Below are positions 73 through 15,388 of a stretch of DNA of 15,566 nt, in pieces. This stretch comes from a candidate division KSB1 bacterium (GTDB lineage: Bacteria > Zhuqueibacterota > JdFR-76 > DREG01): positions 1 through 15,566 of the forward strand of contig JADFJB010000042.1 of NCBI GenBank assembly GCA_022566355.1. The letters run 5' to 3'. Positions within the stretch are counted from its first letter, which is position 1, and every line of letters begins with the position of its first letter. Both the position numbers and the translations under genes were made by a program. A model generated the notes under the pieces. The model was given only the letters and a program-made list of their open reading frames with translations. It was not told the DNA's origin and made no database searches.

Positions 73-945
73 TCAATTTAAAATTGATTTCATTGTTGAA
101 CCTATTTCTGCCGGACTTTCAACAACATGAATATTGGCTGCTTCAAGCGCTGCCATTTTTTCACTTGCTGTGCCTTTACCACCGGATATTATAGCGCCTG
201 CATGACCCATCCTGCGTCCCGGTGGGGCTGTCCTCCCTGCGATAAAGCCAACCACCGGCTTAGTCATATGTTGCTTTACATACTCGGCAGCTTCTTCTTC
301 AGCGGTTCCGCCAATTTCACCAATCATCACAACAGCTTTTGTGTTTTCATCTTGCTGAAATAGCTTGAGTGCATCAACAAAATTAGTCCCGATAATCGGG
401 TCTCCCCCAATTCCAAGACAGGTTGATTGTCCGATACCTAAGATAGTAAGTTGGTGAACAGTTTCATATGTTAAGGTACCACTTCTTGACACAACACCAA
501 CTTCACCGGGAGTATGGATAAATCCCGGCATGATCCCAATCTTACATTCACCAGGAGTAATAACTCCCGGACAATTTGGCCCAACTAATCTGGTTGCTCT
601 TGATGCCAAATATTGTTTGGTCCTGGCCATATCTAAAGTTGGTATGCCTTCTGTAATACAAACGATCAATCGAATTCCTGCATCTGCCGCTTCCATAATT
701 GCATCCCCGGCAAAAGCAGGAGGAACAAATATTATGGACGTATTTGCAGCCTCATTCTCAACCGCTTCAGTAACCGTATTATAAACTGGAATTTTTTCTT
801 GAAAAAGTTGCCCCCCTTTACCTGGCGTTACGCCGGCAACTACATTGGTTCCATATTCAACCATTTGGCTTGTGTGATAAGAACCTTCGCCGCCGGTAAT
901 TCCTTGCACAACGACTCTTGTTGATTTATTCACCAGAATACTCAA
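73..945 (-). CDS. sucD: Succinyl-CoA synthetase (ADP/GDP-forming) alpha subunit
   Basis: SucD, 290 residues, binds CoA and carries the phosphohistidine in the reversible reaction succinyl-CoA + Pi + NDP = succinate + CoA + NTP in the cytoplasmic TCA cycle. It aligns over its whole length with the E. coli SucD family by eye. The N-terminal Rossmann-type CoA-binding part contains VTPGKGG (about residues 39-45), the middle has [16 protein letters not shown] and [10 protein letters not shown], and the catalytic histidine lies in GHAGAII (His248). The start is TTG, chosen because GGAGG lies 7 bases upstream and the protein then begins MSIL as in the family. It follows sucC by 54 bases, so the two subunits are probably co-transcribed, with the carbamate kinase gene ahead of them. 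The TTG start may tune its level against sucC, which is inference. Confidence 0.97.
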
Positions 946-999
946 TTTATTGCCTCCGAAGATCTTTTATCATTATTAAATAAATACATGTTTCTAGAA

Positions 1000-2157
1000 T
1001 TAGCCTATGGCTGCAACTACCTTTTCTGCCGCATCCTTAAAATCATTTGCCACGATAAATTCAAATTCCGACTGATTTAAAATATCTTCTGCCTCCTTTG
1101 CATTTGTACCCTGCAACCGAACCACAACCGGTACATTGATTTCAACATTTCTGGAAGCTTGGATTACACCTTTTGCGACTCTGTCACAACGCACGATTCC
1201 GCCAAAAATGTTAATTAATACAGCTTTTACATTTGAATCAGCCAGTAAAATTTTGTAGCCATTTTCAACCGTTTCCGCACTTGCACCGCCACCCACATCT
1301 AAGAAATTAGCAGGTGATGAACCCGCTAATTTTATTATGTCCATTGTCGCCATAGCCAAGCCAGCCCCGTTAACCATGCAAGCTACTTCACCATCAAGTT
1401 TTATATAATTGAGATCATATTTTCTCGCTTCAACCTCCAGGGATTCTTCCTCATAAATATCCCTCATCTCCGCCAAATCCGGGTGCCGATAAAGTGCATT
1501 ATCATCAAAATCAATTTTTGCATCGAGCGCTAAAACTCTACCGTCTTTGGTTACTACCAATGGATTTATTTCTGCAAGAGAAGCATCTACTATTGATACT
1601 GCTTTATAAAGACCGGAAATAAACCGAAAGGAATTTTTAAACTGGCTACCCGTTAATCCTAGTCCAAATGCGATCTTCCTGGTTTGATAGGGCTGAAGAC
1701 CTAATGCAGGATCGATATATTCTTTTAGGATCTTTTCCGGTGTCTCTTCAGCAACCTTTTCAATTTCAACTCCTCCTTCAGTACTGGCCATGAAAACAAA
1801 CTTTGAAACGGAACGATCTAATACAATCCCTGCGTAAAACTCACGTTCAATTTCCATTGCTTCTTCGACCAATATTTTACGAACCTTTTTACCTTCGGGG
1901 CCGGTTTGATGTGTGATTAAGGTTTTCCCAAGAATTTCAGAGGCAATTTTTTCCGCTTCTTGGGGAGATTTAGCCAGTTTTACACCTCCTGCTTTTCCAC
2001 GGCCGCCTGCATGGATCTGAGCTTTTATGACGACTTTTCCGCCAAGTTCTTCAGCAATAGCTTTTGCTTCTGAAGCAGTAAAGGCGACCCTTCCCCTGGG
2101 AACTTCTACTCCATATCTTTTCAATACTTCTTTAGCTTGATATTCATGAATTTTCAC
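1000..2157 (-). CDS. sucC: Succinyl-CoA synthetase (ADP/GDP-forming) beta subunit
   Basis: SucC, 385 residues, is the ATP-grasp, nucleotide-binding subunit that pairs with SucD. Seen in the sequence: MKIHEYQAKE at the N-terminus, the nucleotide-loop motif AQIHAGGRGKAGGVKL (residues 46-61), AEINPL (195-200), the Mg-binding region DAKIDFDDNALYRH (212-225), NGAGLAMATMD (263-273), NIFGGIVRCD (316-325) and GTNAKEA (350-356). Length is normal for the family. The start is GTG with GGAGG 6 bases upstream. It begins 29 bases after the carbamate kinase stop and ends 54 bases before sucD. Whether ATP or GTP is preferred cannot be told from the sequence by eye. The family call is secure. Confidence 0.97.
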   Translation of the reverse strand: MKIHEYQAKEVLKRYGVEVPRGRVAFTASEAKAIAEELGGKVVIKAQIHAGGRGKAGGVKLAKSPQEAEKIASEILGKTLITHQTGPEGKKVRKILVEEAMEIEREFYAGIVLDRSVSKFVFMASTEGGVEIEKVAEETPEKILKEYIDPALGLQPYQTRKIAFGLGLTGSQFKNSFRFISGLYKAVSIVDASLAEINPLVVTKDGRVLALDAKIDFDDNALYRHPDLAEMRDIYEEESLEVEARKYDLNYIKLDGEVACMVNGAGLAMATMDIIKLAGSSPANFLDVGGGASAETVENGYKILLADSNVKAVLINIFGGIVRCDRVAKGVIQASRNVEINVPVVVRLQGTNAKEAEDILNQSEFEFIVANDFKDAAEKVVAAIG

Positions 2158-2186
2158 GAATAGCCTCCATATTAATGATATTAATC

Positions 2187-3131
2187 CTAGTTATGAATTG
2201 TAGTTCCTGTTCTTCCTTCTAAAGCGGCTAAATGCTTTTCGACCGAAGTGATAATCACTTTTTTCCCTCCGGATTCTAGAAAATTAATCGCGGAATATAT
2301 TTTGGGTCCCATGCTTCCTTTAGGAAATTGACATTCATTCAAATATATTTTTGCTTCCTCAACGGTAAGCGAATCTAAATATTCTTGTCTTGGAGTACCG
2401 AAATTCAATGCTACTTTCTCAACTGCTGTTAGAAGGTGCAATTCATCTGCTTCGAGTTCTTTAGCTAACACAGCCGAAGACAAATCTTTGTCGATAACTG
2501 CATCAACCCCTTCATAGGTTTTTTCTTCGGTAATGTAAACCGGTATACCGCCTCCCCCAACTGTAACAACGATCACTCCCCTATCAAAAAGATCTTTTAT
2601 TATTTCTTTTTCGACAATTGAAATCGGCATCGGTGAAGGGACTACCCGGCGCCACCCTCTACCGGTGTCTTCTTTCATAGTCCAGTTTCGTTCTTTTTGA
2701 ATCTTCTTTGCTTGCTCCTCTTTATAAAAACTACCAACAAATTTGGTGGGATTCAGAATTGAAGGATCATTTTTGTCAACAATAACCTGGGCTGGAATTG
2801 TAGTAACTTCTCTAGCTATATTTTGCACAATTAACTTATTTTGTAGGGATTGGGTAATCATATATCCCATACCGCCACATAAATCCGCAACCATAACACC
2901 AAGGGGAATTGGTGTCACCTTGTCTCTTGTCGCTTCAACTCTTATTAAATAATTACCAACTTGGGGACCATTACCATGTGTAAGCGCCAGTATGCTTCCA
3001 TCTTTAATTATTTCAGTAATACCTATAAGACTTCTGCGTGTATTAGCAAATTGCTGAGCAATATTGCCATCTTCAAATTCCCGTGTAATTGCATTACCCC
3101 CTAATGCAACAACGATCCGCTTTTGAGTCAT
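2187..3131 (-). CDS. arcC: Carbamate kinase
   Basis: A 314-residue amino-acid-kinase-fold protein predicted to catalyse carbamoyl phosphate + ADP = carbamate + ATP. Seen: RIVVALGGNAI at the N-terminus, THGNGPQVGN, VVPSPMP followed by IVE, VTVGGGGIPV, VDAVIDKDL and GSMGPKI near the C-terminus, all family hallmarks in the usual order. I chose ATG at 3131, with GGA 6 bases upstream, because it gives the standard length and N-terminus. An in-frame GTG at 3170 lies inside a terminator-like hairpin and has no ribosome binding site. No arginine deiminase or ornithine carbamoyltransferase gene is next to it. Instead it heads an apparent operon with sucCD. Its leader contains a promoter and a candidate attenuator. 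The carbamate kinase call is strong, but the source of carbamoyl phosphate is unknown. Confidence 0.93.
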   Translation of the reverse strand: MTQKRIVVALGGNAITREFEDGNIAQQFANTRRSLIGITEIIKDGSILALTHGNGPQVGNYLIRVEATRDKVTPIPLGVMVADLCGGMGYMITQSLQNKLIVQNIAREVTTIPAQVIVDKNDPSILNPTKFVGSFYKEEQAKKIQKERNWTMKEDTGRGWRRVVPSPMPISIVEKEIIKDLFDRGVIVVTVGGGGIPVYITEEKTYEGVDAVIDKDLSSAVLAKELEADELHLLTAVEKVALNFGTPRQEYLDSLTVEEAKIYLNECQFPKGSMGPKIYSAINFLESGGKKVIITSVEKHLAALEGRTGTTIHN

Positions 3132-3153
3132 TATCTTTCCAAATTGAGTATCA

Positions 3154-3206
3154 ACAAAAAAAGCATCCACCTAAACCAGGATGCTTAAAACAAATTTTTT
3201 TAAGCA
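3154..3206 (-). promoter_or_regulatory. Candidate attenuator (antiterminator/terminator) in carbamate kinase leader
   Basis: Read on the minus strand, a perfect 9-bp hairpin TGCTTAAAA/TTTTAAGCA (3206-3198 with 3190-3182, 7-base loop) overlaps a second hairpin AAGCATCC/GGATGCTT (3186-3179 with 3168-3161, 10-base loop). The second is followed directly by a T-run (to 3156) and is a typical intrinsic terminator. The two share bases 3182-3186, so they cannot form together. In addition, the loop of the second hairpin (3171-3176) is complementary over 6 bases to the predicted 5' end of the leader (3223-3228). The layout, promoter then alternative hairpins then gene, is that of a transcription attenuator. 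The regulator or ligand is unknown and I match no known riboswitch family. Confidence 0.5.
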
Positions 3207-3682: not shown

Positions 3683-4918
3683 TTAGGATGTTTCGCCCAT
3701 TTTCCTTTTGCGCAAATATGCCGGAATATCATAGACATCTACTTCATCGCCACCGTTATTAGAAATCTCTTCTTCAAATACTTTTGCCTCTTTTCGTTTA
3801 AAAGCGGGAATATCTAAGACTTTACGCCTTGCGCCAATAATATCTTGAAAAGGATTTTGATTCTCAGAATAATTCTTATTTAGCTCATCATCCAATCCTG
3901 TTGCAATCACAGTTACATGAATTTCATCTTTGATTTTTTCATCTATGATTGCTCCAAAGAATATATTTGCTTCAGAGCCTGCGGATTCGGATATAACAGA
4001 TGCTGCATTTTTTATGTCGTCCAAAGTAAGGTCTAAGCCACCGGTGATATTAATCAAAAGACCCTTCGCGCCTTCCATAGAAATATCCTCAAGAAGTGGA
4101 CTGGCAATAGCGATAGTAGCAGCTTCTTGTGCCCGGTCTGGTCCTGATGCTTGTCCGGTACCCATCAAAGCAGAACCCATTTCAGCCATTACGGTTTTAA
4201 CATCTGCAAAATCCAAATTTATCAATCCCGGCACTGTTATGAGATCAGATATTCCTTGGGTTGCATGTAATAAAATATCATCAGCTATTTTAAAGGCTTC
4301 AAGAAGCGTGGTGCCTTTTGGCACAATTGAGAACAGTCGTTGATTAGGAATAGTAATTAACGTATCAATTTTTTCTCTTAGTTTAGCTATTCCTTCTAAT
4401 GCTCGTTTCGCTCGTTTTACACCTTCAAACTGAAACGGCTTGGTAACAATCGCCACTGTTAAGGCTCCCATTTCCTTCGCTATTTCAGCAACCACAGGGG
4501 CAGCCCCGGTTCCTGTACCGCCACCCATTCCGGCGGTAATAAAGACCATGTCGGTGTCTGCAATTATTGCAGCTAAAGACTCACGATCTTCTTCGACCGC
4601 TAGCCGGCCAATTTCAGGATCAGCACCGGCTCCCAACCCTTTCGTCAGCTTTTTACCAATCTGAATTTTATGGGCAGCATGACTTGATTCCAAAGCTTGA
4701 GTATCCGTATTTATTGCGATAAAGTCAACTCCTTGCAACTGAGCTTCTATCATTCGATTTAATGCATTTCCCCCGGCGCCGCCGACCCCGATAACTTTCA
4801 TCCTGGCTTTTGCTTCAATTTCTTGATCGTAATCTATTGCTATAGACATTGTATTTCCTTCCGCTAAGTTTGCGAGTTTATTATTTTCAAGTTTCCAACC
4901 AAAAGATAATTGGTCCAT
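3683..4918 (-). CDS. ftsZ: Cell division protein FtsZ
   Basis: FtsZ, 411 residues, is the tubulin-like GTPase that forms the cytokinetic ring. Seen: [15 protein letters not shown] (about 42-56), the GTP-binding signature GGGTGTG (132-138), and the T7 loop NLDFADV with Asp236 and Asp239 that completes the GTPase site. The globular part ends near residue 345. The tail is short and holds two C-terminal-peptide-like motifs, [10 protein letters not shown] (367-376) and [12 protein letters not shown] (395-406). The ATG at 4918 has an excellent GAGGTGAT ribosome binding site, giving 23 residues more than usual ahead of a second ATG at 4849, which also has GGAAGGA upstream and gives a typical N-terminus. 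Either or both may be used. It follows ftsA by 37 bases and is last in the cluster. Confidence 0.98.
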
Positions 4919-4955: not shown

Positions 4956-6329
4956 CTAAAATAAATCCTTCACTAATCTTTTCATCCAGCTTAGTATTGA
5001 TTGGAAATTCTCAGACTCATCACCCTCATCAAGTTGCATATCTTCATTTTTATATGTGAGTCCATAATGAATGAGACCTATTCCGGTTGCATGGATAGGT
5101 GATCTGGCAAGACCTACCAAACCTCCGAATCCCTGGGGGATGCCTAGCTTTACCGGTGTATCAAAAATTTGTTCGGCTAACTCTCCAATAGATTCCAACA
5201 TTGAACCCCCACCTGTTAAAACAATACCGGCGTTTAAAAAATCTGCATATTCAGACCTTTGAATTTCTCTTTTTGCTAGCATTAGTATTTCTTCGATTCT
5301 TGGTTGAATAATTTCAGTTAATACTGATTTGGGGACCATGGTTGAAGAGCGACCTCCGACACCCGGAACTTCAATAGTTTCACCATTCATTTGCTTACAG
5401 GATAAAGCGCAACCATATTTCAATTTAATTTCTTCCGCCCTGTCAATCGGAGTTCGAAGTCCCTGGGCAATATCATTCGTGACATTTTTTCCGCCAAGAC
5501 CGATGACTGCAGTATGTCGAATGCTACCTTCGAAAATTAATGCGATATCGGTTGTTCCACCGCCCAAATCGAGTAAACCAATGCCTATTTCTTTTTCATC
5601 ATCACCTAATACAGCAAAGCTCGAGGCCAGGGGCTCTAACACCAGGCTCCGGGCTTTCAAACCGGTTCTCTGGACACAGCGATAAATATTTTGAGCCGAA
5701 GTTACTGCACCGGTTACAATATGAACTTCCGCCTCTAACCGAACGCCTGAAAACCCTACTGGATTTTTAATACCACTTTGATCATCTACAATAAATTCCT
5801 GGGGAATGACATGAATAATTTCGCGATCAATCGGCAATGATACCGCTTTAGCTGCATCGATGACTCTTTGAACGTCATCTTCGCTGATTTCACGATTCCC
5901 GCCGGATACTGCAACCACTCCCCTGCTGTTAATACTTCGAATATGGTCACCTGCAATACCAACATAGACCGATTCAATTTCAATACCAGACATCAACTCA
6001 GCTTCTTTAACTGACTTTTCAATTGATTGAACTGTTTTATCCAGGTTGACCACAACCCCTCTTCGCAATCCTTCTGAAGGGGAAACTCCAACACCGATGA
6101 TTTTCATGCCTTCTATTTCATCGATTTCTGCAACAATTACTGCAATCTTATTTGTACCAATATCCAAACCCACAATGATTTCTCCCAATTCCCGGTCTTT
6201 CCGCAAAGGCTTTCCAGTAGTTGATTGCCTCCATGCATCAGGGTAGGCAGACCGACGATTTCCATTGGATTTTTCCAACGTACTATTGAATAAATCTAAA
6301 GAATCGTTAATAAATGTTTTCCTAGTCAT
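4956..6329 (-). CDS. ftsA: Cell division protein FtsA
   Basis: FtsA, 457 residues, is the actin-like ATPase that tethers FtsZ filaments to the membrane and recruits later division proteins. Seen: phosphate-1 loop GLDIGTNK (54-61), the FtsA-specific 1C subdomain (about 130-205), phosphate-2 loop LDLGGGTTD (253-261), adenosine motif VLTGGGSML (370-378), and an amphipathic C-terminal helix rich in Trp, Leu, Lys and Phe (442-457) suited to membrane targeting. The protein has about 50 residues before the actin fold, which most FtsA lack. The ATG at 6329 is favoured by AAGGA 7 bases upstream, although an internal TTG close to the fold is possible. It starts 33 bases after ftsQ and is followed by ftsZ, the usual order. 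Confidence 0.97.
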   Translation of the reverse strand: MTRKTFINDSLDLFNSTLEKSNGNRRSAYPDAWRQSTTGKPLRKDRELGEIIVGLDIGTNKIAVIVAEIDEIEGMKIIGVGVSPSEGLRRGVVVNLDKTVQSIEKSVKEAELMSGIEIESVYVGIAGDHIRSINSRGVVAVSGGNREISEDDVQRVIDAAKAVSLPIDREIIHVIPQEFIVDDQSGIKNPVGFSGVRLEAEVHIVTGAVTSAQNIYRCVQRTGLKARSLVLEPLASSFAVLGDDEKEIGIGLLDLGGGTTDIALIFEGSIRHTAVIGLGGKNVTNDIAQGLRTPIDRAEEIKLKYGCALSCKQMNGETIEVPGVGGRSSTMVPKSVLTEIIQPRIEEILMLAKREIQRSEYADFLNAGIVLTGGGSMLESIGELAEQIFDTPVKLGIPQGFGGLVGLARSPIHATGIGLIHYGLTYKNEDMQLDEGDESENFQSILSWMKRLVKDLF

Positions 6330-6362: not shown

Positions 6363-7115
6363 TCAATTAAAATTAGCAACAACTTGATCTTCGAAACGAA
6401 GATCCACATAAGAAAGTTTATTATACCTGTTTTCACTTTTAATTTTATTTATGAAAATAAAATTTTTTTCTGCTTTTTTAGAGAAGTTTTCGCGGCCAAA
6501 TAAAACAGGAAATCGTCCATCATTGAAGTATAAAACATATCCTGTTTTTGGATCATAATGAACCTCAGAAAAACTTTGATAATAGGCAGTGCTTATCTTT
6601 TGATTTGACATCAGCAAATCAATTGCTTTAGTTACACGATCGCTTTTTATGAGTTTTCCTACGTCGTTTGGGAGATCTTCAATCCCAGTAATTACAGGCA
6701 AACTTCCCAATAAAATTCCTGTTCCTAAAGGAAGCAGCGTGCCTTCTCTATCTGTGGCAGAAAGTGGCTTGCCGCTTTGTGAGATATATGCGACCGGTTT
6801 CCTTTCGATAATATCAATTTGAAGTGATGAAGGTAAACGTCTGGAAACCAATGCCGCTTTAACATAGGGGTGCTTCTCAATAGATTGTTGGATTTTAGCT
6901 AGGTTTAGATTTGTAACATTAACCCCATTATCCAAATTAAATTGACCTAATATATCTTCAGTTTTGATAAGCCGGTTACCATTCACTTCTATCGCTTGTA
7001 AAGAAAAAGTATCACTAATCGCAACCCAATTATTAATTTGCAAAACAATAAACACCATCCCGATAATTACGACTACCAATGTAGCCCCACGGATTAACTT
7101 AATCTTTTTCTTCAT
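6363..7115 (-). CDS. ftsQ: Cell division protein FtsQ (POTRA domain)
   Basis: FtsQ, 250 residues, is a bitopic inner-membrane divisome protein that bridges the FtsL/FtsB-type complex and early division proteins. Seen: a short Lys-rich cytoplasmic tail (MKKKIKLIRG), one membrane helix (about 9-28), a POTRA domain (about 37-107) with the typical IEVNGN and RRLPSSLQIDIIERKPVAYI segments, and a beta-rich FtsQ/DivIB domain to the C-terminus. The start has a strong AAGGAG 7 bases upstream. It begins 16 bases after murB and precedes ftsA, which is the standard position. Sequence similarity in this family is low, so the call leans on POTRA pattern, topology and position together. Confidence 0.93.
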   Translation of the reverse strand: MKKKIKLIRGATLVVVIIGMVFIVLQINNWVAISDTFSLQAIEVNGNRLIKTEDILGQFNLDNGVNVTNLNLAKIQQSIEKHPYVKAALVSRRLPSSLQIDIIERKPVAYISQSGKPLSATDREGTLLPLGTGILLGSLPVITGIEDLPNDVGKLIKSDRVTKAIDLLMSNQKISTAYYQSFSEVHYDPKTGYVLYFNDGRFPVLFGRENFSKKAEKNFIFINKIKSENRYNKLSYVDLRFEDQVVANFN

Positions 7116-7131
7116 GATAAAACTCCTTGAT

Positions 7132-8082
7132 TTAATCTAAATTCTTTAATAAACCACGATCACTCCAGCCCACCAATTGGTTTTCCAAATCAAGTTTGAC
7201 ACCAAATTTTTTATAGACTTTTTCGCGAATAATCTGAATCAGATCATATATATTTTGTGCAGTCGACCTTCCTTTGTTGAGAATGAAATTTGCATGTTTT
7301 GTAGAGACGACCGCGTCACCAACCCGTATTCCTTTTAGCCCTGTTTGTTCGATTAATACACCGGCATATTTCCCTGGCGGTCTTTTGAATACACTACCTG
7401 CAGATGGATATGACAATGGTTGTTTACTTTTTCTTCGCTGCCAAATTTCATCCATAGTTCTGCTTATGCTATGGCAATCATCCGGTTTCAGTAATAATTC
7501 TATTCCAAGTGTAATCTTCTCTGGATCGGTAAATCCTTTGCGATAACCAAATAGGATCTCTTCCTTTCGCAAAGTGTCTGTTTTTCCGTTTAAATCCATG
7601 ACATCCACAGAAATTAGGCAATCTGAAATTTCACTTCCAAAAGCTCCTGCATTCATGTATACTGCTCCGCCTATCGTCCCGGGAATTCCAATCAATCTCT
7701 CCAATCCTCCCAAACACTTCTTTTTCATTTCAATGAGGAAATCCCAAAGAATCATTCCAGTGCCAACTTTTACTGTAAGATTGTCGATGATCAATTCTTT
7801 GAATCCCTTTTGCAAATTAACGACAACACCTCTAAAACCTGCGTCACTAATAAGGAGATTAGCGCCTTTACCTATAATGAAAAATGGAATATTTTTTTTT
7901 GACACATAATTCATAAAAATACTTAAATCCTCACAACCAGACGGTTCGAAATAAATATCTGCAAGACCACCGACTTTATATGTTGTATATCTTTGCAATG
8001 ACCGATCTTTCACCAACAGTCCGCGAACCATTCTTCTTAAATCATGAAAAGCAGGATCACGGCGCCATTGATTGGTTTTCAT
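7132..8082 (-). CDS. murB: UDP-N-acetylenolpyruvoylglucosamine reductase (MurB)
   Basis: MurB, 316 residues, is the FAD enzyme that reduces UDP-GlcNAc-enolpyruvate to UDP-MurNAc with NADPH in the cytoplasm. Seen: YTTYKVGG (32-39), FAD-binding GKGANLLISD (71-80) and IPGTIGGAVYMNAG (133-146), the catalytic serine in SAGSVFKRP (Ser230), and a C-terminal catalytic glutamate in LENQLVG (Glu300). It is of the compact class II type. The start is uncertain: ATG at 8082 has no clear ribosome binding site, and ATG at 8031 is also possible without harming the FAD domain. It lies 25 bases after murG. In many bacteria murC stands between or is fused here, but there is no trace of it. Confidence 0.96.
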   Translation of the reverse strand: MKTNQWRRDPAFHDLRRMVRGLLVKDRSLQRYTTYKVGGLADIYFEPSGCEDLSIFMNYVSKKNIPFFIIGKGANLLISDAGFRGVVVNLQKGFKELIIDNLTVKVGTGMILWDFLIEMKKKCLGGLERLIGIPGTIGGAVYMNAGAFGSEISDCLISVDVMDLNGKTDTLRKEEILFGYRKGFTDPEKITLGIELLLKPDDCHSISRTMDEIWQRRKSKQPLSYPSAGSVFKRPPGKYAGVLIEQTGLKGIRVGDAVVSTKHANFILNKGRSTAQNIYDLIQIIREKVYKKFGVKLDLENQLVGWSDRGLLKNLD

Positions 8083-8107
8083 TCTGCGAATTTATATTTC
8101 AATCTGA

Positions 8108-9217
8108 TCAATTAAATAAGAGAGTATTGCATAGATCAGAAACAATGTCATGAGCAGCATTTGGCCTCGCTAAACTTTTCATATTCATCTTCATTTTTGA
8201 AAGTTTTGCATCATCATTGATTGTCTCTTTAATTGTTTGGAACAGTTTGTCTGCATCAAGATCGCCTTCCAACAGACAAATTGCTGCGCCTTTGGATTCC
8301 AAATCTCGTGCGTTGTATTCTTGATGACCGGCAGTTGCATAGGGGAATGGAATTAAAATCGCCGGGACTTCCAAATAAGTTAATTCAGCAATTGTTGTAG
8401 CTCCTGCCCGGCAAATACAGAGATTGCAGGCAGCATAAGCGGAATAAATTCGATGAATAAATGGGAAGAGCTTAATCCCGGATTGATCACCAAAAGTTTC
8501 CACGATTTTCTTATAATGATTTGAACCGGTTGCCCAGATAATTTGAATGCCACATTCTTGGATTATTTGAGGTGCAATTTCAATCATTAACTCATTGATT
8601 TTTAAAGCACCTTGACTTCCTCCAAAAATAAACAAAGTCTTTTTACTTGAATCAAAAGCGAATTCTTGTAATGCTACAAACGGATCTACTGATGAATCAA
8701 TCTGTCTAACGGGATTACCGAAAACTTTTATTTTTTCTTTGTGCTTAAAATATTTCTCCGAAGATCCATAAGTCAAGTAAATCCTCTTTGCCCATTTGCC
8801 TAATAATCGTGTAGAGGCTCCTGGAAAGCTATTCTGCTCATGAATTGCAGTCGGAATTCTTAAAGTAACTGCCGAAGATACAACCGGGAGGCTAACGTAG
8901 CCTCCGGAACCTACAACCAAATCCGGTCGTTTCCTCAAGAATTGAAATAATAAATTTATAACTGAAGCCATAAACTCGAGTGGAATTAGCAAATTTTCAA
9001 GTGTCAAGTTACGCTTAAATCCTCTGATTCTAATGAAATTAAGCCGATATCCTAGTTGATCTTTCAATCTGTATTCGATGCCTTTTTTGGTGCCCCAAAA
9101 TGCTATTTCGCAATTTGGGAAACGATTTCTAAATTCTTTTGCGATTGCTAAAGCCGGATATAAATGTCCTGCTGTTCCACCTCCGGCAAAATGAATTCGA
9201 ATCGGTTTATCTTCCAA
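8108..9217 (-). CDS. murG: UDP-GlcNAc:lipid I GlcNAc transferase (MurG)
   Basis: MurG, 369 residues, is a GT-B glycosyltransferase on the inner face of the membrane that adds GlcNAc to lipid I, making lipid II. Seen: GGGTAGHLYPALAIA (12-26), the membrane-associating hydrophobic stretch around 77-95, HEQN (126-129), GGSQGA (199-204), the UDP-GlcNAc-binding RAGATTIAEL (270-279), and HQEYNA (298-303). The start is TTG with GAGG 7 bases upstream, and it overlaps the end of ftsW by 11 bases, which suggests translational coupling. The length is normal. The murB gene follows after 25 bases. Confidence 0.97.
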   Translation of the reverse strand: MEDKPIRIHFAGGGTAGHLYPALAIAKEFRNRFPNCEIAFWGTKKGIEYRLKDQLGYRLNFIRIRGFKRNLTLENLLIPLEFMASVINLLFQFLRKRPDLVVGSGGYVSLPVVSSAVTLRIPTAIHEQNSFPGASTRLLGKWAKRIYLTYGSSEKYFKHKEKIKVFGNPVRQIDSSVDPFVALQEFAFDSSKKTLFIFGGSQGALKINELMIEIAPQIIQECGIQIIWATGSNHYKKIVETFGDQSGIKLFPFIHRIYSAYAACNLCICRAGATTIAELTYLEVPAILIPFPYATAGHQEYNARDLESKGAAICLLEGDLDADKLFQTIKETINDDAKLSKMKMNMKSLARPNAAHDIVSDLCNTLLFN

Positions 9218-10361
9218 CCCATCGCCTCGATCTTCTCATAGTATTTGCATGGCTACTCCTGCGCACCAATGACGATTCGTTGTATTGAGAGATGTTTAAC
9301 AAAATTCCAACACCTGCCAGAGTAGTGATCATAAATGATCCTCCATAACTTATAAAAGGCATGGGAAGTCCTTTTGTCGGCAAAAGATTGCTCACGACAC
9401 CTGCGTTCACAAATGCGTAAATTCCGATACTTGTTGTGATGCCAACAGCCAGTAATGCACCCGCCTCATCCGGGCAACGACGGGCAATCTTAAATCCTTC
9501 CAGGATCAACAATAAAAATAAAAATAAAACCACGGAAGTACCCACAAATCCAAATTCTTCACCAACAATCGAGAAAATAAAATCAGTAAACGGTTCCGGG
9601 AGAAATTCTAATTTCTGAGTACTGTTATCTAATCCTTTCCCCCAAAAGCCGCCACTGCCAAGGCTGATTATTGATTGGTTAACCTGGTATGGTAGGGACT
9701 TACCATTTATTACTGAATCTAAAAAATCTTTTATGCGAACAATATGGTAATCATGCTTCATCAAAAAAATCGGCACAGTGAGTAAAGCAACGAAACTAAG
9801 ATGAAGCAAACTTACACCTGCGGTTATAAAGATCACAACACTAATCGCCAGTAAAATAACTACGGAGCCCATATCCGGCTGTTTGATCAACAAAAAAGAG
9901 ATCAATCCAAGTATGAACAATTGGGGTAATAATCCTTCCTTCCACTTTCTCAGGTATTCATGCTTCCGAATCATTGCATCGCAAAGATAAAAGATCAGCG
10001 CCATCCTGAGGACATCAACCGGTTGAAAACGAAAAGAATAAATTTCAATCCATCGTTGTGCATTTCTTTCCTTAATTCCTAAGATTAACACAGCAATCAA
10101 TAGTCCGATACCTATAAGCAACCAAATTCTAGCACTCTTCAGCCAAAAATTGTATGGAATAATGGCAGCAATAATCAACGCAAACAATCCGATTAAAATC
10201 CGGTAAAAATGAAATCGAAAATAAATGGAATCGCTTCCCAATTTTTTATATGCAACATGATGGCTGGCGCTATATACCATTACTAATCCGATGCAAAGCA
10301 ATAGGAATACCAAGGCAAATAAAAAATAGTTATACCGATTTTCTGTTGCTTGATCTAGCAT
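9207..10361 (-). CDS. ftsW: Septal peptidoglycan polymerase FtsW (SEDS family)
   Basis: FtsW, 384 residues, is a SEDS-family membrane glycosyltransferase that polymerises lipid II at the septum together with FtsI. About ten hydrophobic segments span the sequence. Seen: GLVMVYSAS near the first helix, RWIEI then RFQPVD (111-116), the large extracellular loop region KLEFLPEPFTDFIF with the conserved catalytic aspartate, GEEFGF, and the C-terminal LPTKGLPMPFISYGGS, which is typical of FtsW rather than RodA. The usual QPSE motif reads QPVD here, a conservative Glu-to-Asp change at 116. The ATG overlaps the mraY stop by one base (TAATG), with AAGG upstream. The tail is short and arginine-rich. The murD gene that normally precedes it is absent. 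Confidence 0.97.
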   Translation of the reverse strand: MLDQATENRYNYFLFALVFLLLCIGLVMVYSASHHVAYKKLGSDSIYFRFHFYRILIGLFALIIAAIIPYNFWLKSARIWLLIGIGLLIAVLILGIKERNAQRWIEIYSFRFQPVDVLRMALIFYLCDAMIRKHEYLRKWKEGLLPQLFILGLISFLLIKQPDMGSVVILLAISVVIFITAGVSLLHLSFVALLTVPIFLMKHDYHIVRIKDFLDSVINGKSLPYQVNQSIISLGSGGFWGKGLDNSTQKLEFLPEPFTDFIFSIVGEEFGFVGTSVVLFLFLLLILEGFKIARRCPDEAGALLAVGITTSIGIYAFVNAGVVSNLLPTKGLPMPFISYGGSFMITTLAGVGILLNISQYNESSLVRRSSHANTMRRSRRWVGR

Positions 10362-11449
10362 TATCTGACCTTAAACAATCCCAAACTAAATAGTAAAAGT
10401 AAAATCCCAATGATCCAGAACCTGACAACAATTTTATTTTCCGGGATTCCCATGAGTTCAAAATGGTGATGCAGTGGCGCCATTTTAAAGATTCTTTTCC
10501 CTCCGCGATACTTGAATGACATGACTTGCAAAATGACTGATAAAGTTTCGGCAACAAAGATTCCACCGATAAAGAGCAATAAAACCTCTTTTTTGAGTAG
10601 GATCGCCATTGTACCCAAAGCTGCACCAAGGCTTAAGCTGCCAACGTCACCCATAAAAATTTGAGCAGGATGAGAATTAAACCACAGAAAACCCAGGCAG
10701 GCGCCCAGCAGGGCCGCACAAAAGATAGTAAGTTCACCTGCGCCTTTCAGATACATCAGATTAAGGTATTCACTATAATCAACTCTTCCGCTGATATAAC
10801 TTATGGCGCCCCAAGCCAAACCTGATATTCCAACAAGTCCAACTGCAAGCCCATCTAATCCGTCAGTCAAATTCACGGAATTTGAAGTTGAAATTAAAAC
10901 AAATACAGAAAGGGGAATGATGATTATTCCTAGGTTAATGATAGAGTCTTTTAAGAATGGGATAAATGTGAGAGAGTGAATCCCTTCATAAACCGGGGAG
11001 AACCAAATTACCAAACCCACGAATAAACCTGCAATTAATTGTCCGGCCAATTTATATTTGGCGACTAACCCTTTAGGATATTTTTTAATGACTTTGAGAT
11101 AGTCATCCAGAAAACCGATGGCACCCATAAAAATAGTTACCAACAAAATCACTTTAATAAACATATTGTCTAATCTAGCAAACAAAATAGTCGGTACAAT
11201 AATTGAGATCAAAATAATGATACCGCCAAATGTTGGAGTACCGGTTTTGGCCTGGTGGCGTTCAGGAGCTCCTGAATAAATCTCCTCACCAATTTGTTTC
11301 TTTTGCATATAAGCGATCACTTTTGGACCAATATAAAAACTGATCAATAAAGCTAAAATTGAGGCTGATGCTGAGCGAAAAGTAATGTAACGAAACAAGT
11401 TGAAACCGAAGAAAAATTCTCTCAGCGGGAATAGTAGGTGATATAGCAT
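10361..11449 (-). CDS. mraY: Phospho-MurNAc-pentapeptide transferase (MraY)
   Basis: MraY, 362 residues, is an integral membrane enzyme that transfers phospho-MurNAc-pentapeptide from UDP to undecaprenyl phosphate, giving lipid I. Seen: HQAKTGTPTFGG (65-76), the Asp pair in FLDDYLKV (Asp115/Asp116), NLTDGLDGL (193-201), MGDVGSL (266-272) and the histidine-rich loop PLHHHFE (325-331), with about ten hydrophobic helices. The ATG has GGAG 8 bases upstream and starts 21 bases after murF. Its stop overlaps the ftsW start. Order murF-mraY is standard, but mraY is then joined directly to ftsW without murD. Confidence 0.98.
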   Translation of the reverse strand: MLYHLLFPLREFFFGFNLFRYITFRSASASILALLISFYIGPKVIAYMQKKQIGEEIYSGAPERHQAKTGTPTFGGIIILISIIVPTILFARLDNMFIKVILLVTIFMGAIGFLDDYLKVIKKYPKGLVAKYKLAGQLIAGLFVGLVIWFSPVYEGIHSLTFIPFLKDSIINLGIIIIPLSVFVLISTSNSVNLTDGLDGLAVGLVGISGLAWGAISYISGRVDYSEYLNLMYLKGAGELTIFCAALLGACLGFLWFNSHPAQIFMGDVGSLSLGAALGTMAILLKKEVLLLFIGGIFVAETLSVILQVMSFKYRGGKRIFKMAPLHHHFELMGIPENKIVVRFWIIGILLLLFSLGLFKVR

Positions 11450-11470
11450 TATCCGGGCTCCACGTATGTC

Positions 11471-12871
11471 TCAACTTCTTAAGGTTTCATCTAAATTTTG
11501 CAATTCTTGCCATACTTCTTCCATTTGCATCCCTCTTGATCCTTTTATTAAGAGCACATCGTTTTCACGAAGTATTTTTGAAACATAGGATGCTAACTCT
11601 CTTTTATCATCAAAATGGAAGGCTGTTTTTTCACCAGCCTCTTTAAAACTCTCCAAGGTATATTTAGATTCAGGTCCAAATAGGAATAAAGCTTCGATAC
11701 CGTGCTCTACTGCTGTTTTCCCGGCACTTTCATGCTCGATTTTACTTTGGTTTCCAAGCTCCAGCATATCTCCCAGAACTGCCAAAGCCCTACCTTTTCT
11801 TCTGTGCGCTAAATAACTTAGTGTTTCAAATGCGGGTATCAGAGAATCAGGATTTGAATTGTAAGCATCCAGAATGACTAAACTCGATCCGAATTCAATC
11901 AACTCCAAGCGTTTTGAAATACAGGTAAATTGCTTTAAGGCTTCGGCAATATCGAACTCTGAGATTCCAAAATGCATTCCAACTGCGCAAGCCGCCAAAG
12001 CATTGTGTAATTGGTGACGACCCGGAACATGCAATTGAACATTTACCCTATTTTGTAATTTAAATTTTCCAAAGCCATTGTGATCCGTTTCCAAGTCTGT
12101 GCCGAAAATATCCGTTTCAGTTGAGAACCCATAAGTTATTTTATGTTTAACAATTTCTGATTCTCGTACAACCCTGGGATCATCGGCATTGACAAACGCG
12201 GTACCGCGCTCCGGTAAAGCGTGGAATAATTCTCCTTTAGCTTGTGCTATTTCTTCAATATCAGAAAAATACCCTAAATGGCCAGCACCAATATTTGTTA
12301 TCAGTCCAAAATCAGGAGCAGCAAATTCACAAAGCCGGGCAATTTCACCGGCGTGATTCATACCCATTTCAATAATTGCGATATCAGTGTTTTTATCGAT
12401 TTGGAGCAAGGACAAAGGCGTTCCTATTTGATTGTTCAAATTTCCAATTGTTTTTGTTACTTGATACTTTGATCCCAATACTGCAGCTATCATTTCTTTT
12501 GTTGTTGTTTTACCATTTGTTCCTGTAAGACCTAAAACAGGTATTGAGAATTTTCGCCTGTAATTTTTTGCAAGAACTTGTAATGATTCCAAAGGTTCAT
12601 CACATCGAACGATGATGTTTTGGTCAGATATTTTCCAATCCGGCTCCCAGCCTTCTCTGGCTACACAAGCTATTGCTCCTGCCTCGAAAGCCGGATTGAT
12701 AAAATTGTGTCCATCAAAATTGTCACCGTTAATTGCAAAATAAATATCTCCGGGTTGTAGCGTCCTTGTGTCTATTGAAACCGAGCTTACGTTGCGATTG
12801 GGATAATTACCCTCCACTCTTACATTGGGGCCTAACAGAATGACCCAAGTTTCAAATGACATAAAATCCAA
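11471..12871 (-). CDS. murF: UDP-MurNAc-tripeptide D-Ala-D-Ala ligase (MurF)
   Basis: MurF, 466 residues, is the cytoplasmic ATP-dependent ligase that adds D-Ala-D-Ala to the UDP-MurNAc-tripeptide. Seen: SIDTRTLQPGDIYFAI near the N-terminus (32-47), P-loop GTNGKTTT (117-124), IEMGMNHAGEI (167-177) and ITNIGAGHLG (191-200). These favour MurF over MurE. The three-domain Mur ligase layout is complete and the length is normal. The start is either TTG at 12871 (AGGA about 10 bases upstream) or ATG at 12862, a difference of three codons. It lies only 7 bases after ftsI, where murE would usually be. It is the only amino-acid-adding Mur ligase in the window. Confidence 0.96.
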   Translation of the reverse strand: MDFMSFETWVILLGPNVRVEGNYPNRNVSSVSIDTRTLQPGDIYFAINGDNFDGHNFINPAFEAGAIACVAREGWEPDWKISDQNIIVRCDEPLESLQVLAKNYRRKFSIPVLGLTGTNGKTTTKEMIAAVLGSKYQVTKTIGNLNNQIGTPLSLLQIDKNTDIAIIEMGMNHAGEIARLCEFAAPDFGLITNIGAGHLGYFSDIEEIAQAKGELFHALPERGTAFVNADDPRVVRESEIVKHKITYGFSTETDIFGTDLETDHNGFGKFKLQNRVNVQLHVPGRHQLHNALAACAVGMHFGISEFDIAEALKQFTCISKRLELIEFGSSLVILDAYNSNPDSLIPAFETLSYLAHRRKGRALAVLGDMLELGNQSKIEHESAGKTAVEHGIEALFLFGPESKYTLESFKEAGEKTAFHFDDKRELASYVSKILRENDVLLIKGSRGMQMEEVWQELQNLDETLRS

Positions 12872-12878
12872 GTAGATC

Positions 12879-14954
12879 TTATCCTGATTTTGGACGACAA
12901 ATTATCTTACACTCAATTTTATTAGTCTTGGAATTAGCTGTAGGTGATTGAGAAACAACAATTCCACTGCCAATTACCAATGGATTAAATCCTGCCTGCG
13001 TTAATATTAAGGCTGCCTCTCTTAAGCTTTTACCACGAACATCAGGCATCCTTTTATTTGAATCATCCAATCTCTTTTTATTTCCCAGGTTCAATTTCAC
13101 TAACTCTCCGGATAACATTAACGTATTCGGCGCAGGATACTGTGATAGTACATAGTTGCCTTCACCTTCAATTCTTGTTTCAAATCCATAATCTTGTAGA
13201 ATTGAGGTAGCAATGTCAGTTGATAATTCTGTTATGTCCGGAACCATGATCTTGGATTTTGTATTTTCAACCAGGACAGCATCCGAATCGTCTGACATTA
13301 ACCCGAGAATCCTTCGCAAAATTCGAGAAAAAATCGGAGCAGAACTCTGGCCTCCGTATATATATGGATACTTCGGTTCATCTAACATTACCAGGCACAC
13401 AAGTTTGGGATGTTCAACAGGTGCAAAACCAACAAATGAGGCAATGTATTTTGTATCGGAGTATCTATTTGTTTCGGAATTAAACTTTTTGGTAGTACCT
13501 GTTTTACCTGCGATATCAATTCCCTCAATGGCAGCTTTTTTACCCGTACCATTTTCAACTACATCTCGCATAAATGATTTCAGCACGGCAACCGTTTCCA
13601 GTTTTAAAACCTGACGAATTGTATCTATTTTTGTTTCTTGCAGATCTCTTGGATGATTTGACTCTTGGATTGCTTTTATTAACCTTGGCTTGAGTAAATA
13701 TCCACCATTCGCAACGGTCGCATAAGCGTTTGTCATTTGAATACTGGTGGCCATTACACCATATCCGATTGATACTCTTACAGCATCGCTGTTACTCCAT
13801 TTCACGTATTTGGTTAATTTACCCTGATCCTCACCCATCAGATCGACACCGGTAACCCCTCCAAATCCAAATGACCGGCTATATTCGTAAATCCATTTTT
13901 TACCAACCTTTTGAGATATTTTAGCAATACCTATATTACTGGAATTAGAATACACTTTTTTAAAGGAAAGATTTCCATATGGCTTATGGTCAGTTATCCA
14001 ACCACCAGGAAATTTAGATTTGCCATTTTCACAAAATATGATGTCAGTTGGTTTATAAATTCCTTTTTCCAATGCCGCCGATACGGTAACTAATTTGTAT
14101 GTTGAACCTGGTTCATAAGGATCGACAACCACTCTATTCCTTCGTTCATAAGGTTGAAAACTGGGAAAACTATTTGGATTGAAGTTTGGATAACAGGCCA
14201 GGCTTAAGACTTCACCCGTAAATGGATTCATTAAAACCAACATCCCAGCCTTAGCTTTGTATTTTTCAATCCCTCTTTTTAATTCCTCTTCCACAATTCT
14301 TTGATAATTGATATCAATGGTTAGGATAACATTCTTTCCATTTACAGGTTCAAGTTCCGGCTTTCCAAGTGTCGGAACCGATCTACCTTTTCCGTCAAAA
14401 TTGATTGTTTTGAATCCCTTCTCCCCTTGCAGTATTTCGTCATAGCTTTTCTCGATACCTGCCAGGCCTTTATGGTCGATGTTTGTGAAACCAAGTATAT
14501 GTGATGCAGTTCGTTGATAGGGATAATACCGGCCAATAGTTTTCTCTTTAACTACCGAATTATCCGGGCTTAGCTTTATCTTATTCGCTGTTTGTAAATC
14601 AATACCCCTGCCAAGCCATAAAAAACGATCTCTTTTAAATAATTTTAAATAATGATCGATAGAATTGTCAGTAATGTTTGTAAATATTTGAGCTAATTTC
14701 TTAGGATTTTTTACATACTTCGGATTAACCCCAAAAGAATATTGTTCAACATCAATTGCAAGCTGATTAAAATTTCGATCATAAATAATTCCCCTTTTCG
14801 CCGGCACCTCTACAATTCCTTGCGATTGGCTTTCTGCACGCTTACGATACTCATTGCTATTGAGTACCTGAATGGTGAAATATCGTGCTACAAGTACCAG
14901 GTAGGCTATGATTGCCAATATCGACCAAAATGTTAATAACCAACGCCGAATCAC
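12879..14954 (-). CDS. ftsI: Septal transpeptidase FtsI/PBP2B-like with two PASTA domains
   Basis: A class B penicillin-binding protein of 691 residues that cross-links septal peptidoglycan outside the inner membrane. Seen: N-terminal signal-anchor helix (about 5-24), PBP dimerisation domain (about 45-200) with PAKRGIIYDRN, then the transpeptidase domain with the active-site motifs STYK (Ser284/Lys287), SSN (338-340) and KTG (484-486). Two PASTA domains follow (about 568-625 and 634-690), beginning VPDITELS and MPDVRGKS. It therefore resembles SpoVD/PBP2B-type proteins more than E. coli FtsI. The start is GTG, overlapping the ftsL stop by four bases (GTGA), with GGAG 7 bases upstream. FtsW in the same operon is its expected partner. 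Confidence 0.96.
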   Translation of the reverse strand: MIRRWLLTFWSILAIIAYLVLVARYFTIQVLNSNEYRKRAESQSQGIVEVPAKRGIIYDRNFNQLAIDVEQYSFGVNPKYVKNPKKLAQIFTNITDNSIDHYLKLFKRDRFLWLGRGIDLQTANKIKLSPDNSVVKEKTIGRYYPYQRTASHILGFTNIDHKGLAGIEKSYDEILQGEKGFKTINFDGKGRSVPTLGKPELEPVNGKNVILTIDINYQRIVEEELKRGIEKYKAKAGMLVLMNPFTGEVLSLACYPNFNPNSFPSFQPYERRNRVVVDPYEPGSTYKLVTVSAALEKGIYKPTDIIFCENGKSKFPGGWITDHKPYGNLSFKKVYSNSSNIGIAKISQKVGKKWIYEYSRSFGFGGVTGVDLMGEDQGKLTKYVKWSNSDAVRVSIGYGVMATSIQMTNAYATVANGGYLLKPRLIKAIQESNHPRDLQETKIDTIRQVLKLETVAVLKSFMRDVVENGTGKKAAIEGIDIAGKTGTTKKFNSETNRYSDTKYIASFVGFAPVEHPKLVCLVMLDEPKYPYIYGGQSSAPIFSRILRRILGLMSDDSDAVLVENTKSKIMVPDITELSTDIATSILQDYGFETRIEGEGNYVLSQYPAPNTLMLSGELVKLNLGNKKRLDDSNKRMPDVRGKSLREAALILTQAGFNPLVIGSGIVVSQSPTANSKTNKIECKIICRPKSG

Positions 14955-15388
14955 TCGATTACTCCATATTTTTTCTCCTGAACCCGCGAATATAAATTCA
15001 ATAATTCTTCTCGAGATTTATCTTTAGTTAAAAGCTTTTCTCCTGTATTCTCCTTCATCTCCGGAATCTTGTCATATTTCAAAACTGTTGGACTGGAAGA
15101 TGCATCTATCATTTTGAGCTTTTTCTCTGCGATGTCCCTAATGTATTCCGCGGATGTATATCTCGTCGAATCTATCCGCCATAACGCGTTTTCCTGGACC
15201 AACCGGTTATTCAACTCCCCAATTTTCTCAGCGGTTGTTAATGTTTTGCGAATGTTAACCCTCATTAAAATTTGAAAGATCGCTATGATCGTCAAAAGAC
15301 CAACTACCAGAATGAAGTTTTTATTCTTTCTCGGCTTGATAATCTTTATGGACCTACGTTGTGGATATTTTTTTGATGATTTTAACAT
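14951..15388 (-). CDS. ftsL: FtsL-like septum formation protein
   Basis: A 145-residue bitopic membrane protein, probably FtsL. It has a basic cytoplasmic tail (1-23, many Lys and Arg), one membrane helix (24-43), and a polar, probably coiled-coil stretch (about 45-92) in which Leu, Ile and Val recur among charged residues (KIGELNNRL, then YIRDIAEKKLKM). This is the FtsL/DivIC pattern. A further tail of about 50 charged residues makes it longer than most FtsL. The gene lies between rsmH, 3 bases upstream, and ftsI, 4-base overlap, the classic ftsL position. Similarity alone would not prove it, so the call rests on topology plus context. Confidence 0.85.
   Translation of the reverse strand: MLKSSKKYPQRRSIKIIKPRKNKNFILVVGLLTIIAIFQILMRVNIRKTLTTAEKIGELNNRLVQENALWRIDSTRYTSAEYIRDIAEKKLKMIDASSSPTVLKYDKIPEMKENTGEKLLTKDKSREELLNLYSRVQEKKYGVIE

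Follow-up and report, generated by a model that had tools for sequence, protein, structure and literature searches.

The stretch analysed here, the window, is 15,566 nucleotides long (G000:C42:1-15566) and comes from a candidate division KSB1 genome of 4.62 Mb in 213 contigs, 98.5% complete. Its dcw cluster raises a simple question. MurC, MurD and MurE are drug targets, and to our knowledge they are considered indispensable in every bacterium that makes peptidoglycan. How might a cell build its wall when all three genes are absent from the cluster where they usually lie?

The dcw cluster of the window

The genes of the window, placed by open reading frames and NCBIfam profile scans (Table 1), run in the order ftsL-ftsI-murF-mraY-ftsW-murG-murB-ftsQ-ftsA-ftsZ, with mraW and mraZ coming next on the same contig. 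Relative to the canonical dcw cluster all other genes keep their order and strand, but murE, murD and murC are not in place, and the ORF coordinates bear out the first-pass annotation, which had described three ligases missing from three sites and had put the joints at 7 bases, a one-base overlap and 25 bases. The full order ftsI-murE-murF-mraY-murD-ftsW-murG-murC-murB is found in two genomes of the same phylum (G010, G012). An assembly error at the joints, one explanation considered in that annotation, can be set aside, as the same three genes are missing from the dcw clusters of G002, G005, G006, G013, G015 and G040; since relatives within the phylum show both states of the cluster, the joints are inherited. 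The mraW reading frame (L011:750-1814) contains four X residues from an N gap in the contig, away from the joints of the window, and sucD-like, sucC-like and carbamate kinase-like genes adjoin the dcw cluster at window positions 73-3170.

Table 1. Genes and joints of the dcw cluster, in window coordinates
Feature	Position	Strand	Basis
ftsL-like	14951..15388	-	ORF, position and size
ftsI-type transpeptidase, PASTA-like tail	12879..14954	-	ORF and NCBIfam scan
Joint ftsI/murF, 7 bases	12872..12878		murE site in G010, G012
murF, D-Ala-D-Ala adding ligase, retained	11471..12871	-	TIGR01143, 410.6 bits
mraY	10361..11449	-	TIGR00445, 375.7 bits
Joint mraY/ftsW, 1-base overlap	10361..10361		murD site in G010, G012
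ftsW	9207..10361	-	TIGR02614, 337.1 bits, slightly below cut-off 337.5
murG	8108..9217	-	TIGR01133, 298.1 bits
Joint murG/murB, 25 bases	8083..8107		murC site in G010, G012
murB	7132..8082	-	NF010480, 324.3 bits
ftsQ/divIB-like	6363..7115	-	NCBIfam scan
ftsA	4956..6329	-	ORF, by sequence
ftsZ	3683..4918	-	ORF, by sequence

Mur ligases in the genome and across the phylum

Searches of the whole 98.5%-complete genome with the Mur_ligase_M, Mur_ligase_C and Mur_ligase models returned no murC, murD or murE elsewhere, and only four Mur-ligase proteins in all: MurF, a 494-residue protein on contig C40, and two proteins on contig C52 that NCBIfam assigns to cyanophycin synthetase or similar. The C40 protein passes the cut-off for Mpl (TIGR01081, 422 bits against 388.7) and fails the murC model (282 bits against 335.1). 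It contains the exact motif SAFFDKRSK, (S/T)AFFDKRSK being specific to Mpl and absent from other Mur ligases (PMC3060825); in other families the motif varies, for instance as SAFFDKAAK. The C40 protein also has FEPRTNT at the place of the MurC FQPH. In a tree of Mpl and MurC, split with 100/100 support, it falls on the Mpl side beside the Mpl proteins of G002, G006 and G005. The C40 protein thus belongs to the Mpl family, not to MurC, and is predicted from its sequence to ligate tripeptide, joining L-Ala-gamma-D-Glu-mDAP to UDP-MurNAc in one step as known Mpl does (PMC3060825). Because this single step equals the three carried out by MurC, MurD and MurE, the genes lost are exactly those that Mpl bypasses, and what is retained, from MurF onward, is what the Mpl product needs.

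The C52 proteins, CphA and CphA', were considered as ligase substitutes and rejected on their cphB-cphA-cphA' gene order, their clear cyanophycin scores and their location on a contig apart from the cell-wall genes; with a cyanophycinase-like gene they stand in a row (G000:C52, L013:1501-6915), an ordinary cyanophycin cluster. The first-pass annotation was right in holding that peptidoglycan synthesis continues and that something has taken the place of the lost ligases; its suggestions of a separately regulated ligase operon or of a ligase fusion find no counterpart among MurF, Mpl, CphA and CphA', and the unusual stem peptide that it proposed is not needed if Mpl adds the ordinary tripeptide.

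Among relatives, the pattern extends well beyond the window genome. All genomes compared are MAG-like drafts, and the murC model identifies true MurC in 14 of 82 phylum genomes (413-556 bits), with one further partial match at a contig end. An Mpl-type ligase is present in 62 of the 68 MurC-less genomes; the six with neither comprise five that are 56-88% complete and one, G042, at 93%. The mpl model scored above its cut-off in 27 of the 30 genomes checked with it, the exceptions being fragments in G047 and G049 and no Mpl-level match in G042. The Mpl of G049 is split into two overlapping reading frames (L079:9361-10768), a frameshift of the gene or of the assembly. Glutamate racemase follows MurC: the MurI model is above its cut-off in 12 of 59 genomes searched, every one of them MurC-bearing, and in that search neither the MurC-bearing G003 and G005 nor the window genome has a match above it. 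As the MurC-bearing and MurC-less groups are related families, the pattern reflects few independent events. The idea that relatives carry ordinary murC, murD and murE elsewhere, which would reduce the observation to a simple rearrangement, fails for most of them. G005 does combine Mpl with a separate murE-murD-murC operon outside the dcw cluster, and in G003 such an operon is spread over two contigs. A stand-alone MurE persists in some Mpl-only relatives (in G002 its score, 554 bits, is that of a true MurE), and G058 keeps a MurD-like protein. The MurE gene in G039 and G043, and the MurD gene in G058, lie upstream of aspartokinase, MurA and MurB (L165, L166, L172).

Supply of UDP-MurNAc and the source of the tripeptide

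An Mpl route would also depend on UDP-MurNAc, which the window genome can in principle make de novo, as it encodes both MurA (contig C107, 563 bits) and MurB. MurA is found at 457-589 bits in 12 of the 20 genomes searched, the window genome included; G002, G009, G015, G017, G024, G037, G038 and G044 have only an EPSP-synthase-level match, so that MurA is absent from 8 of the 17 MurC-less genomes checked, and G002 and G015 also have no murB in their dcw clusters. In all eight MurA-less genomes an AmgK-like kinase and a MurU-like nucleotidyltransferase lie next to each other and to a RapZ C-terminal domain, which is either separate or fused, AmgK and MurU being the best-matching models for those parts with scores below the curated cut-offs. 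In the window genome the best match to the MurU model, at 79 bits, is not MurU-like. Judged from its gene content, the amgK-rapZC-murU operon could make UDP-MurNAc from salvaged MurNAc in the MurA-less relatives, as AmgK and MurU are thought to stand in for MurA and MurB in T. forsythia (PMC7670621). The RapZ C-terminal domain, which is fused to or lies between the kinase and the transferase at L317, L320, L322, L326, L328, L329, L342 and L347-L357, is possibly a sensor in MurNAc salvage. MurU-like, AmgK-like and Mpl genes also lie near one another at L204:639-4959, in a record titled Deltaproteobacteria.

Overall, we think it probable that in this lineage the MurC, MurD and MurE steps of precursor synthesis have given way to the one recycling reaction of Mpl, with a tripeptide that is most likely salvaged. 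UDP-MurNAc would be supplied by MurA and MurB in the window genome, or by AmgK and MurU in some relatives; Mpl would add L-Ala-gamma-D-Glu-mDAP, and MurF would then add D-Ala-D-Ala to the product; MraY and MurG would convert this to lipid II, which FtsW and FtsI would use to finish the wall. On this proposal murE, murD and murC would have been cleanly dropped from the dcw cluster as MurC, MurD, MurE and MurI went, and the tripeptide would come most likely from the peptidoglycan of other cells, plus the cell's own turnover, with MurNAc most likely salvaged through AmgK and MurU in the MurA-less relatives. The gene losses, the family identity of Mpl, the genes kept and the amgK-rapZC-murU operons are observed; from them we infer that wall synthesis runs through Mpl, with a tripeptide taken up from outside on which the cell relies to grow. 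Salvage is favoured by the loss of MurA, by the AmgK-MurU operons, and by the NlpC/P60 and epimerase-family genes that sit together in relatives, and CAZymes that could act on peptidoglycan have been mentioned for KSB1 (PMC9012183). Our best reading is that peptidoglycan is made from salvaged murein parts, partly in the window genome and wholly in several relatives. More tentatively, much of the phylum might consist of obligate murein scavengers or predators, taking tripeptide through Mpl in nearly all cases and MurNAc through AmgK and MurU where MurA is missing. There are counterpoints: the true MurE of some Mpl-only relatives, such as G002, is unneeded in a pure tripeptide-salvage scheme, the MurD-like protein of G058 and the six genomes with neither MurC nor Mpl also speak against it, and net growth on salvage alone must have a rich external source. 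At L143, L144, L145 and L146 an NlpC/P60 gene with an SH3-like domain adjoins the epimerase-family gene, and L143, L144 and L146 also have a diaminopimelate decarboxylase-like gene.

The strongest alternative, one we consider unlikely but worth taking seriously, is that the tripeptide is made de novo before Mpl loads it: other ligases would form L-Ala-L-Glu, an epimerase-family enzyme would convert this to L-Ala-D-Glu, and MurE in some lineages, or another ligase, would add mDAP. MurI would not be needed in such a scheme, since the L-Ala-D/L-Glu epimerase-family enzyme would supply the D-Glu, and the window genome does encode an enolase-superfamily protein (L133:9602-10633) with L-Ala-D/L-Glu epimerases among its best NCBIfam models. 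Similar proteins occur in most MurCDE-less genomes, where MurI is gone, and a subset of relatives keeps true MurE. However, the epimerase assignment lies below curated cut-offs, and in some relatives the gene stands beside NlpC/P60 and LysA-like genes, a setting that looks catabolic; the window genome yielded neither MurE nor another candidate enzyme for linking D-Glu to mDAP; and within the one ATP-grasp family searched, ATP-grasp_4, no protein is shared throughout the tested MurCDE-less genomes, two of which, G002 and G013, have none. An adjacent Ddl-like pair was considered as a loss-linked ligase and rejected, being present also in the MurCDE-bearing G022. Two adjoining Ddl-like ATP-grasp genes occur at L266, L268, L272 and L277, some with a nearby acetyltransferase or lysine 2,3-aminomutase-like gene.

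A gap in assembly or binning that hides an operon of murE, murD and murC, such as G005 has, seems to us very improbable: the genome is in 213 contigs and such operons do occur in two genomes of its order, G005 and G003, but its completeness is high, MurI is absent as well, and MurC is missing in most of the phylum, including G015, G017, G023, G024 and G049, which are 96-100% complete in only 5 to 30 contigs. Least probable of all is an Mpl broadened to MurC-like action on L-Ala, with D-Glu and mDAP attached to the nucleotide by unrelated enzymes, for although a thermosensitive murC mutant is complemented when E. coli mpl is supplied on a multicopy plasmid, the turnover of PaMpl is 0.7 per min with L-Ala against 260 with the tripeptide (PMC3060825), the Mpl-specific motif of the C40 protein is intact, and the window genome lacks MurD and MurE.

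Implications and comparison with known systems

If salvage through Mpl is indeed the route, a phylum-wide bypass of this kind would mean that a recycling enzyme can turn into the main route of wall synthesis. It would also predict reliance on the murein fragments of other cells, which may help explain the lack of cultures, and would suggest that cultivation be attempted with murein tripeptide and MurNAc supplied.

Elsewhere, Mpl alone is not the rule, since Mpl-bearing named genomes of other phyla mostly have true MurC. The murC model was applied to the 18 genomes from which the named Mpl loci come (G099 being the same record as G023). In 13 of them it gave an unambiguous true MurC; the MurC of G087 is partial, that of G095 is an end fragment, and G091 has no separate MurC, yet MurD, MurE and MurF are present. 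G088 (L174, Verrucomicrobiia VER1) shows Mpl and MurF only, with no MurC, MurD or MurE among its murC-model matches. A literature search limited to open-licence papers found no published Mpl-only wall.

Xanthomonas has an alternative pathway whose enzymes are reportedly MurD2 and MurL. In that pathway (PMC8788868), D-Glu likewise does not come from the usual racemase; it uses MurD-type chemistry on the nucleotide, however, and the window genome has no MurD. The MurA-less relatives can be compared with the MurNAc auxotroph Tannerella forsythia, which has no MurA or MurB: these relatives likewise have amgK and murU and would depend on outside MurNAc, but they lose the peptide route too, whereas for T. 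forsythia the description concerns the sugar alone, with Mpl and MurC unmentioned (PMC7670621). The window genome itself is not an auxotroph of this type, as it keeps MurA and MurB and has no AmgK/MurU pair. A further parallel is the recycling Mpl of E. coli and Psychrobacter arcticus (3HN7), which shares family and motif with the C40 protein and would be expected to share its reaction. In E. coli, however, Mpl is dispensable, a side route that runs alongside MurC to MurE, whereas in the window genome it is the sole ligase found that would be able to join peptide to UDP-MurNAc.
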